From: Lacrimispora sp.
GTDB taxonomy: Bacteria > Bacillota > Clostridia > Lachnospirales > Lachnospiraceae
Assembly (NCBI GenBank): GCA_029256305.1
Contig: JAQSYE010000073.1
Span: forward strand, 1 to 33,673
Direction: 5' to 3'
Length of the DNA: 33,673 nt
Shown: positions 1 through 21,614 of the stretch, in pieces
Position numbering within the stretch: position 1 is the stretch's first letter
Layout: every line of letters begins with the position of its first letter
Notes under the pieces: model-generated
The model's input: the letters and a program-made list of their open reading frames with translations, nothing else
The model's database searches: none
What the model was told of the DNA's origin: nothing
Program-made: the position numbers and the translations under genes

Positions 1-1
1 T

Positions 2-1072
2 ACAGATAACAGTCTCTGGATCAAAATCCAGCAGGGTTTGAGGGAAACCGAGGCACTTATGAACCAGAAGCAGTATAACATGGTCATGATCAAAGCTCGC
101 CAGACTCTGGAATATATGATTCATTTTCTTGCCGAAAAGGCGTTGATTGTGGAAACCGATCTGGCAGACAGCATTGACCAGTTATATGAAGGCCGATTTA
201 TTTCCCCGGCTGTCAAAGACCACTACCATCGGATACGGGTACTTGGCAATAAAGCAGTACATGAAGGCAATGACAGCCCCTATGATGCTTCTGAAGCCAG
301 CAAACTGATTGCTGCGGAAGTCACTGCCTTTACAAACGCATTTCATAAAAGCCGTCAGGGCGCACAACCCCAGAAACCACGCACTGCGAGTGTACAAGCC
401 GCTCCCATGTCATCAAGAGCATCTTCTCAGAGAGTCGCTACAACCTCAGAGGAGCCCAGAAGAACAGGAACACCACAAAGATCGGCTCCCGGTTCATCCC
501 ATAGAGCAGCTCAGGGTTCCGGTTCCGGCTCCAGATCACCGCAAAGGCCTGCACAGGGTTCTGCCCCAAGGAACGACAGACGTCCGGCTCCTCAAAACAG
601 AAGCAGGCGCCGTAACAAAAAAAGGAAGAATGATTTATCCGGATTATTAAAACCGTTTCTTATATTTATGCTTCTTTTTGTAATCGTGCTGATTATCGTA
701 AAGCTGATACCAGGGAAAGATAAAAAGGACGAGACTGTACCTACTCAAGTTTCCACTGAGATCACTTCAGAAGCAGTATCCACCACTGCAGAAGCTGCCA
801 CCGAGCCTACCGAAGCAGAGACAGATCCTCCTAAAGTTTATACAACTAAGAGCAAACTTAACGTTCGGTCTAAACCTGCCACCGACGGCACAAAGCTTGG
901 AAGCCTGGCTTCCGGTACCGTTGTGGAGTATGTGGATACCTATGATGATAAATGGACTGTTGTCATGTTTGAAGGCAAACAGGCCTATGTAGCAACTGAA
1001 TTTTTAACGGTAACAGAAGGAACCGAAGAATCAAAAGCAACTTCAGAAAGCACAAAAGCCACCAATCAATAA
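2..1072 (+). CDS. DUF4145-like N-terminal domain + basic low-complexity linker + single TM + extracellular SH3 domain protein (5' partial)
   Basis: The listed ORF starts at a TTG at 38, but the frame stays open to the window edge (TDNSLWIKIQQGLRETEAL...). 'RVLGNKAVHEG' is DUF4145-like; TM 'FLIFMLLFVIVLIIVKLI'; SH3 'KLNVRSKPATDGTKLGSLASGTVVEYV'. Confidence 0.75.
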   Translation, partial: TDNSLWIKIQQGLRETEALMNQKQYNMVMIKARQTLEYMIHFLAEKALIVETDLADSIDQLYEGRFISPAVKDHYHRIRVLGNKAVHEGNDSPYDASEASKLIAAEVTAFTNAFHKSRQGAQPQKPRTASVQAAPMSSRASSQRVATTSEEPRRTGTPQRSAPGSSHRAAQGSGSGSRSPQRPAQGSAPRNDRRPAPQNRSRRRNKKRKNDLSGLLKPFLIFMLLFVIVLIIVKLIPGKDKKDETVPTQVSTEITSEAVSTTAEAATEPTEAETDPPKVYTTKSKLNVRSKPATDGTKLGSLASGTVVEYVDTYDDKWTVVMFEGKQAYVATEFLTVTEGTEESKATSESTKATNQ

Positions 1073-4623: not shown

Positions 4624-5055
4624 ATGTCAACATTAGTAAAATTCACATTAGCAGCTGCATTACTTTTAAGCATCGCAATCCCGTTCGGAGCATTCGCCAT
4701 TGGGGAGAAATCTAAAGGGCGCTACAAGAAAGCGCTTGGAATTAACTTACTCCTCTTCCTTGGAACAATCGCCGTTTCCGGTATTTTTCTCTTTAACGGA
4801 CAGGCGGACGCTGCAGAAGCCGCAGGAAGCACCGCGGCAAGCGTTGCAGGAATGGGATATTTAGCTGCCTCTCTTTCCACTGGTCTTGCCTGCATCGGCG
4901 GCGGAATCGCTGTCTCCGCAGCCGCAAGTGCTGCACTGGGCGCCATCAGTGAGGATAGCTCCATACTTGGTAAATCACTGATCTTCGTAGGTCTTGCCGA
5001 AGGTGTTTGTCTCTATGGCCTGATCATATCCTTTATGATCTTAGGTAAATTATAA
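4624..5055 (+). CDS. ntpK: V-type ATP synthase membrane rotor subunit K (4-TM, one carboxylate)
   Basis: 143 aa; C-terminal hairpin 'GLACIGGGIAVSAAASAALGAISED...GLAEGVCLYGLIISFMIL' is a typical c/K-subunit hairpin. Confidence 0.92.
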   Translation: MSTLVKFTLAAALLLSIAIPFGAFAIGEKSKGRYKKALGINLLLFLGTIAVSGIFLFNGQADAAEAAGSTAASVAGMGYLAASLSTGLACIGGGIAVSAAASAALGAISEDSSILGKSLIFVGLAEGVCLYGLIISFMILGKL

Positions 5056-5327
5056 TGACCGGTATGAGACTGGCGGGTGTGGAAGGCGCTGTCGTTCATG
5101 AAAAAGCAGAATTGAAGAGCCAGCTTGATAAGGTTCTGGCCGACAAAGAGATCGGGATCATCCTCATGACGGAGAAATTCGGAAAAGAATTTCCGGACAT
5201 CATCAATGATGTGAAATTAAACCGCAAGCTGCCGTTAATTATTGAAATCCCTGACCGCCACGGTACCGGCCGCAAGCCCAACTTTATCACGGACTATGTC
5301 AACGAAGCAATCGGACTAAAACTATAA
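5055..5327 (+). CDS. ntpG: V-type ATP synthase subunit F, apparently N-terminally short
   Basis: 90 aa; 'GMRLAGVEG...IGIILMTEKF...LPLIIEIPDRHG' matches the F subunit; ATG overlaps the ntpK stop by 1 nt (taATG). Confidence 0.85.
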   Translation: MTGMRLAGVEGAVVHEKAELKSQLDKVLADKEIGIILMTEKFGKEFPDIINDVKLNRKLPLIIEIPDRHGTGRKPNFITDYVNEAIGLKL

Positions 5328-18730: not shown

Positions 18731-20089
18731 TTATCTAAGATCCAGGGGATTGTACTCCTCTTCCTGCATAACACTCACATAAGCCGGACGTATGATCTTA
18801 TCCATGTTAATAAGTTCCTCAATCCGGTGAGCACTCCAGCCCACGATTCTTGCAAATGCAAAAATGGGGGTAAATAATTCATTTGGAATGTCTAACATGC
18901 TGTAAACAAATCCGCTGTAGAAGTCAACATTGGCGCTGACTCCTTTGTAAATCCGGCGCTCTTCTCCGATGACTTTGGGTGCCAGCCGTTCTATGGCCGC
19001 GTAAAGGTTAAAATCTTCCATGCGGCCCTTTTCTTCTGAGAGCTGTTTCACAAATCCTTTGAATATTTCCGCACGTGGATCTGATTTGGAATAGACTGCA
19101 TGTCCCATTCCGTAAATCAGTCCCTTCCGGTCATATGCTTCCTTATGAAGCAGCTTCTTTAAGTACTCCTCTATTTCTTCTTCATTCTTCCAGTCATGTA
19201 CCTCTTTCCGTAAATCATCCATCATCTCAACTACCTTGATATTCGCACCACCGTGTTTTGGCCCTTTTAACGATGCAAGAGCAGCCGCCACCACGCTGTA
19301 CGTATCCGTTCCGGAAGAGGTCACCACATGGGTTGTAAACGTGGAGTTGTTGCCGCCGCCATGCTCCATGTGAAGAATAAGCGCCAGATCAAGAACATGA
19401 GCTTCTACTTCAGAATATTTCATATCCGGTCTTAGGAGTCTTAAAATATTTTCAGCCGTGGACAACTTTTCATCTGGTCTGTGGATATACATACTTCCGC
19501 CCCTCTCATAGTGATTAAAGGCATGGTACCCATAGACAGCCAGCATTGGCATGACACTGATTAACATCAGGCTCTGACGAAGCACATTTGGCACCGATAT
19601 GTCTCCTGCTTTTTCGTCATAGGCAGACAATGTGAGAATACTCCTTGCAAGAGTGGACATCATGTCATGGCTTGGTGCCTTCATCACCACGTCTCGAACA
19701 AAATTGGTAGGGAGAGTTCTACTGAAGCCTAATGTCTGTGAGAAACTATCCAGCTGTTCTTTATTGGGTAAATCTCCGAACAAAAGGAGATAGGCGATTT
19801 CTTCGAATCCGTATCTACCCTCTTTCACTACTCCATTTACCAGATCATAAATATTATATCCCCGGTAATAAAGTTCTCCTTCGCAAGGTACCTTCTCTCC
19901 GTCTACGGTTTTACTCGACAAGATCTTTGACACTTTGGTCAGACCGGCAACCACTCCGTTACCGTTCCTATCTCTAAGCCCCCTCTTTACGTCGTATTTG
20001 TCGTAGGATTCTAAGTCAATCCGTTCATCATTTAAACAGATTTCCGACCATTCCTGAACATTTTTTTCAAATTCTTTCTGATCAATCAT
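18731..20089 (-). CDS. gltA: Citrate synthase
   Basis: 'LALILHMEHGGGNNSTFTTHVVTSSGTDTYS', 'GPKHGGANIKV', 'GMGHAVYSKSDPRAEIF'. Start MIDQKEF at 20089 with AGAGGTG RBS chosen over 20203. Confidence 0.95.
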   Translation of the reverse strand: MIDQKEFEKNVQEWSEICLNDERIDLESYDKYDVKRGLRDRNGNGVVAGLTKVSKILSSKTVDGEKVPCEGELYYRGYNIYDLVNGVVKEGRYGFEEIAYLLLFGDLPNKEQLDSFSQTLGFSRTLPTNFVRDVVMKAPSHDMMSTLARSILTLSAYDEKAGDISVPNVLRQSLMLISVMPMLAVYGYHAFNHYERGGSMYIHRPDEKLSTAENILRLLRPDMKYSEVEAHVLDLALILHMEHGGGNNSTFTTHVVTSSGTDTYSVVAAALASLKGPKHGGANIKVVEMMDDLRKEVHDWKNEEEIEEYLKKLLHKEAYDRKGLIYGMGHAVYSKSDPRAEIFKGFVKQLSEEKGRMEDFNLYAAIERLAPKVIGEERRIYKGVSANVDFYSGFVYSMLDIPNELFTPIFAFARIVGWSAHRIEELINMDKIIRPAYVSVMQEEEYNPLDLR

Positions 20090-20203
20090 GCAAACACCTC
20101 TTTCTGAAAACAGATCATCAAGTTTCGCCGTTTTACCAAATGCCTTACCCCGCCTTTCCCCTTTGTAAGTATATTCCAATTGTTCACTTTTGAACTTTTT
20201 CAT

Positions 20204-20274: not shown

Positions 20275-20303
20275 TTGACAAACACTCCCCCAACTCTTAT
20301 ACT
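20275..20303 (+). promoter_or_regulatory. Predicted strong promoter upstream of the TRIC-like gene
   Basis: TTGACA-N17-TATACT. Confidence 0.75.
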
Positions 20304-20329
20304 TGCCTTAATTTACCTGTTGGGAATAA

Positions 20330-20902
20330 TCGGAGGATATCCATGAAAATCTTGGAGTCATCGTTCTCGGCGTTACAACGGCTGTGGGCGGCGGTATGCT
20401 GCGCGATATAATTATCGGTAATGTCCCTCCTGCGCTGTTTAAGGAACCGATTTACGTATTACTTGCCTTTATTACGGTTATGCTTCTATTTATAACAGTA
20501 AGGCTGAATCAAAAATTTATTTCCGGACGTTACATGGAGACCTTCGAAAAAGTCATGAACATCTTCGATGCAATCGGACTTGGTGCATTTACAGTAGTTG
20601 GAATTGATACGGCCGTTTTAGCCGGTTATGGAACCTATCATTTTCTTATTGTATTTCTTGGTGTTATTACTGGTGTGGGCGGAGGTATCCTGCGCGATAT
20701 TATGGCAGGCCAGACTCCTTATGTTCTTAAAAAACACATCTACGCCTGTGCTTCCATTGCAGGCGCCATGCTCTATGCCGGTCTGATGAACCACATCAAT
20801 GAAGACATCGCCATGCTGTCAGGTGCCGCAACTGTTATTATAATTCGTCTGCTGGCTACCCGTTTTTGCTGGAATCTGCCTACGGCCGTTAAAAAACAAT
20901 AA
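20330..20902 (+). pseudogene. TRIC/UPF0126-family (YadS-like) cation channel, 5'-truncated or frameshifted
   Basis: Frame open from 20330: SEDIHENLGVIVLGVTTAVGGGMLRDIIIGN...; both GGG-LRD repeats present ('VGGGMLRDIIIGN', 'VGGGILRDIMAGQ') but about 30 N-terminal residues are absent. The only listed start (GTG 20384) lies inside the first conserved motif. Confidence 0.65.
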
Positions 20903-20918
20903 AATCTGGAGGTTACTC

Positions 20919-21614
20919 ATGAACCGTTTACTGCAATATACTGTTGGTATTATTTTTTCCATCTGCCTTATGGTGGTGCTGTTATTTACAGCAGTCGAGG
21001 CCGCCGTTTACTGGACGCCCGGCTATTTTGAAAAGGAATATAAAAAATATAACGTGACTCAATCCGTCTCCATGAAAATGGATGATCTTATGGATGTTAC
21101 AAATCAGATGATGGCATATTTAAAGGGTAACCGGGCAGAGCTTCAGGTAACGACCACAATGGGAGGAGTTCGCAGAGATTTTTTCAGTGCCAGAGAAATC
21201 GCTCATATGGAAGATGTTCAGGGGCTGTTTTTAGGCGCCATGTCTATCCGGAGAGGCTGCCTTATGGTAATGGTACTATGCCTGATAATTCTTATGTTAT
21301 TGAAAATATGCTGGAATAATACCTTTCCCAGATCAGTTCTAATGGGGAGCGGATTGTTTTTCCTTGGATCCGCCATAATAGCCGGAATTATTTCTACAGA
21401 TTTTACAAGATATTTTATAATGTTTCATCATTTATTTTTCAAGAATGATTTTTGGATGCTTGATCCATCTACTGATATGCTAATCAATATAGTTCCGGAA
21501 GGTTTTTTCAGGGACACTGTTTTTTATATTGGTTTTCTCTACTTTTTCTCGGTCGTGATACTATTGGCTTTATGCGCGTTTCTTATGCGTAAAAAGGGGG
21601 AAAATAGCAAATAA
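20919..21614 (+). CDS. TIGR01906/DUF1461 family integral membrane protein
   Basis: 231 aa with N-terminal TM, soluble loop and C-terminal TMs; 'FFSAREIAHMEDVQGLF'. Confidence 0.82.
   Translation: MNRLLQYTVGIIFSICLMVVLLFTAVEAAVYWTPGYFEKEYKKYNVTQSVSMKMDDLMDVTNQMMAYLKGNRAELQVTTTMGGVRRDFFSAREIAHMEDVQGLFLGAMSIRRGCLMVMVLCLIILMLLKICWNNTFPRSVLMGSGLFFLGSAIIAGIISTDFTRYFIMFHHLFFKNDFWMLDPSTDMLINIVPEGFFRDTVFYIGFLYFFSVVILLALCAFLMRKKGENSK

Follow-up and report, generated by a model that had tools for sequence, protein, structure and literature searches.

We found that 94 bp were missing near the start of the TRIC-family membrane channel gene in the window (the whole stretch of 33,673 nucleotides of Lacrimispora sp. 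that was analysed), and we believe that this loss is very probably an assembly artefact of the draft, caused by a bad join between contigs. Contigs would have broken off where the reads or the assembly graph failed, for example where co-occurring relatives have the same sequence; neighbouring contigs would later have been joined directly, with the loss of whatever lay between them and no N put in its place. The assembly join was favoured because eight clean losses clustered in one contig class of the draft and three of them, including one in the window, carried a 99-bp contig-end signature. In the organism itself the TRIC-family channel gene is presumably ordinary and full-length, with expression driven by the conserved promoter and ribosome binding site (RBS).

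The TRIC-family gene and its missing 94 bp

The window was compared with 24 genomes of the same genus, and the coordinates of the features are shown in Table 1. The missing stretch was exactly 94 bp (3 × 31 + 1) against all 24 congeners. The loss was clean and was unique to this draft among the genomes compared (0/24 shared it). In every congener the TRIC-family protein was intact, with 216–225 aa, and started at an ATG homologous to that at 20343. The first-pass annotation had estimated a deletion of roughly 90–100 bp not divisible by three, which agrees with the measured size; it had also considered that relatives might have a full-length reading frame starting at a homologous GTG, and the relatives were found to start at the homologous ATG. 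It had left the choice between an intragenic deletion and an assembly or sequencing deletion. Size and phase were right in that description, and a join that dropped sequence is the better supported of these causes. When the missing 94-bp segment was searched for elsewhere in the same draft genome, no match was obtained, and relocation of the piece within the genome was therefore rejected. The same junction was sought in viral contigs and none was found. A search of the window for tRNAs and RNA families also returned none.

The promoter, RBS and ATG of the TRIC gene were conserved in the alignment with the congeners; therefore, they are not chance matches. As assembled, the frame from ATG 20343 reads MKILESSFSALQRLWAAVCCAI and then stops, while the TRIC frame opens after the TAA at 20327–20329. 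The first start codon in the TRIC frame is GTG 20384, from which an ORF of 172 aa (20384–20902) runs to the normal stop, and a second in-frame start, ATG 20396, lies within the GGGMLRD motif. Direct reading reproduced all the coordinates given earlier for the promoter, RBS, ATG and closed TRIC frame, as well as the early stop of the ATG frame. GTG 20384 had been described as the only standard start: it is the first in the frame, but ATG 20396 is also available. The "HEN" in the peptide quoted earlier comes from translating leader DNA in the wrong frame, and the genuine TRIC sequence restarts at CTTGGAG (LGV). Upstream of the TRIC gene there is a divergent citrate synthase gene (18731–20203), and downstream there is a gene for a Lit-family protein (PF07314, lipoprotein intramolecular transacylase; 20919–21614).

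Table 1. Features of the window (contig C241) and clean losses in other sampled contigs, relative to congeners
Contig	Feature	Position	Strand	Missing (bp)	Basis or remark
C241	True 5' end of contig, same exact 99-bp shared run	1..99	+		Contig-end test
C241	Perfect 99-bp match to congener G023 that stops right at the second junction	4958..5056	+		Mark of former contig end
C241	Second junction, clean loss; V-type ATPase subunit F gene loses its ATG and first 13 codons	5056..5057	+	40	Alignment of window with four congeners
C241	Sigma-70-type promoter of TRIC-family gene, TTGACA (20275–20280), 17-base spacer, TATACT (20298–20303)	20275..20303	+		Read directly in sequence; conserved in congener alignment
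C241	RBS GGAGG (20332–20336) and start codon ATG (20343–20345)	20332..20345	+		Intact gene of 24 congeners starts at the homologous ATG
C241	TRIC junction, clean loss; stretch present in all 24 congeners	20350..20351	+	94	Comparison with 24 same-genus genomes
C241	Remainder of TRIC-family gene (PF03458, both glycine-motif helices), without TM1	20351..20902	+		In frame, intact to normal stop
C239 (L109)	Clean loss	1996		58	
C240 (L107)	Clean loss	8428		202	
C8 (L159)	Clean loss	2033		16	
C152 (L175)	Clean loss	9834		49	
C13 (L164)	Clean loss	10245		128	
C10 (L161)	Clean loss	1447		23	

Two stretches of the window copy matched the PF03458 repeat with 61.1 and 77.4 bits, above the family cut-off of 23.5, and the whole protein scored 127.1 bits; these profile matches bear out the earlier remark that the second repeat is intact. 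The GGG motifs of TM2 and TM5, which are a feature of TRIC channels (PMC5477506), were present in the translation as VGGGMLRD and VGGGILRD. The full-length congener protein matched the solved TRIC chains 5wuc (6e-31), 5wtr, 5h35 and others over almost all of its own length. The window copy does not encode a complete protomer, as the missing 94 bp include TM1 and the ATG is out of frame; the 24 congeners have both TM1 and an in-frame start.

Clean losses across the draft

The window is the entire contig C241 of a metagenome-style draft of 4.13 Mb in 319 contigs, which is 82% complete. A 418-kb sample of this draft was compared with two reference genomes per contig where possible, and eight clean losses of 16–202 bp were found in it. 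When the window was aligned with four congeners, its coding sequence had only one further clean loss of this type, which affects the beginning of the V-type ATPase subunit F gene. The junction of this loss created a new in-frame ATG at 5055, where an annotated-looking ORF (5055–5327) begins. Most of the six losses in other contigs affected conserved genes, either internally or at their beginning.

The contig list of the draft was mostly ordered by length, and some contigs stood out of order; the latter look as if they had been assembled later from pieces. In the sequence covered by both references, all eight losses fell in the 154 kb of out-of-order contigs, whereas the 143 kb of length-ordered contigs had none. 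This division was noticed partway, after three contigs, and the binomial p was approximately 0.005 for all eight losses and approximately 0.017 for the five found after the idea arose. The 418 kb contained no N or other ambiguous base; therefore, any gaps were dropped and not marked.

Several other patterns were considered. The loss sizes of 40, 58, 94 and 202 bp all equal 4 modulo 18, which we regard as chance, because the pattern was broken by the later losses of 16, 49, 128 and 23 bp. A chimera between species at the joins was rejected, as no step in identity was seen across the junctions in 500-bp bins, and general gene decay was rejected, as G000 had no pattern of small frameshifts. Two larger differences from the congeners, 481 bp missing at C13 (L164) 3400 and 1327 bp at C7 (L158) 16879, could be real or made by the assembly; they were set aside from the count because non-homologous sequence was present at their junctions. 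In the complete-chromosome record of congener G023 (CP070896.1; loci L098, L099 and L127–L141), 36 of 107 and 41 of 102 tested genes were split or had stops. The split genes mostly followed a small-frameshift pattern that looks like long-read sequencing error, and G023 was therefore unsuitable as a reference for reading frames.

The 99-bp run at junctions and contig ends

The sequence to the left of C241:5057 and of C8:2033 matched a congener without any difference over exactly 99 bases, beyond which the two diverged. At C13:10245, the shared run was 98–100 bases, as the junction could be placed only to within two bases. Among the 76 contig ends examined, six also had the exact 99-bp run, one of them being the 5' end of the window, compared with 0.005% of random positions. 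In de Bruijn assembly, when a unique contig reaches sequence that a co-occurring relative also has, its last k-1 bases are common to both. Therefore, the k of the assembler would be 100, and the junctions that carry the 99-bp run are best read as former contig ends. The run was sought at the TRIC junction and was absent, as 26 bp were shared to its left and no appreciable run to its right; it was also absent at C239:1996 and C240:8428. The TRIC junction is therefore classed by association, and it was grouped with the other losses because it lies in the same contig, is equally clean and is of the same kind.

Alternative explanations

The absence of the 99-bp mark from the TRIC junction is also what speaks for a real, very recent strain-level deletion of the 94 bp, which would have turned the gene into a pseudogene that still yields, from its promoter and RBS, a nonsense peptide of 22 residues. 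The clean junction agrees with such an event, and the TRIC product is probably dispensable. However, seven more clean losses of the same kind occurred in the sampled draft, all in out-of-order contigs, and one of them cut off the beginning of the gene for a V-type ATPase subunit; when comparable frame-breaking losses were sought in the same regions of congener G004, none was found. The dN/dS of the retained TRIC coding sequence was approximately 0.03 against the nearest congeners, not above the values between intact congeners. As judged from the sequence comparison, this shows strong purifying selection on the retained part, and it would be consistent with an unbroken gene or a very recent break, but the relaxed selection that a pseudogene might display was not seen. 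We consider a real deletion improbable.

It is harder still to believe that the gene truly exists and works in its truncated form, with translation from GTG 20384 or ATG 20396 giving a shorter channel. The frame from 20384 runs uninterrupted to the normal stop and has a conserved sequence, but both starts lie in or beside the glycine motif of TM2 without a good RBS. Such a protein would lack TM1, whereas the solved TRIC protomers have seven TM helices in two inverted triple-helix bundles (PMC5477506), and the short form was found in 0 of the 24 congeners. We give this reading hardly any weight, and the bad contig join remains our preferred explanation.

Implications and comparison with known systems

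These results are mainly a warning that one contig class of the draft loses short stretches at joins without N. Such losses lead to false pseudogenes and false gene starts, as in the TRIC gene, the V-type ATPase subunit F gene and others. Exact k-1 shared runs, compared between true contig ends and internal junctions, are a cheap test that requires no reads.

Among prokaryotic TRIC channels (Pfam PF03458 "Gly_transporter"; PDB 5wuc, 5wtr, 5wuf, 5h35 and 5h36), the window copy is alike in its two PF03458 repeats with GGG motifs. Unlike them, as assembled it has no TM1 and no usable start, while the congener proteins are ordinary members of the family. In comparison with the gap-loss artefacts at contig joins of short-read metagenome assemblies, the TRIC junction differs in having no k-1 mark, and the k value used here is one that we infer. 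The losses are similar to these artefacts in being clean, unrelated to reading frame and confined to out-of-order contigs, and some of the junctions carry the same k-1 shared runs as true contig ends.
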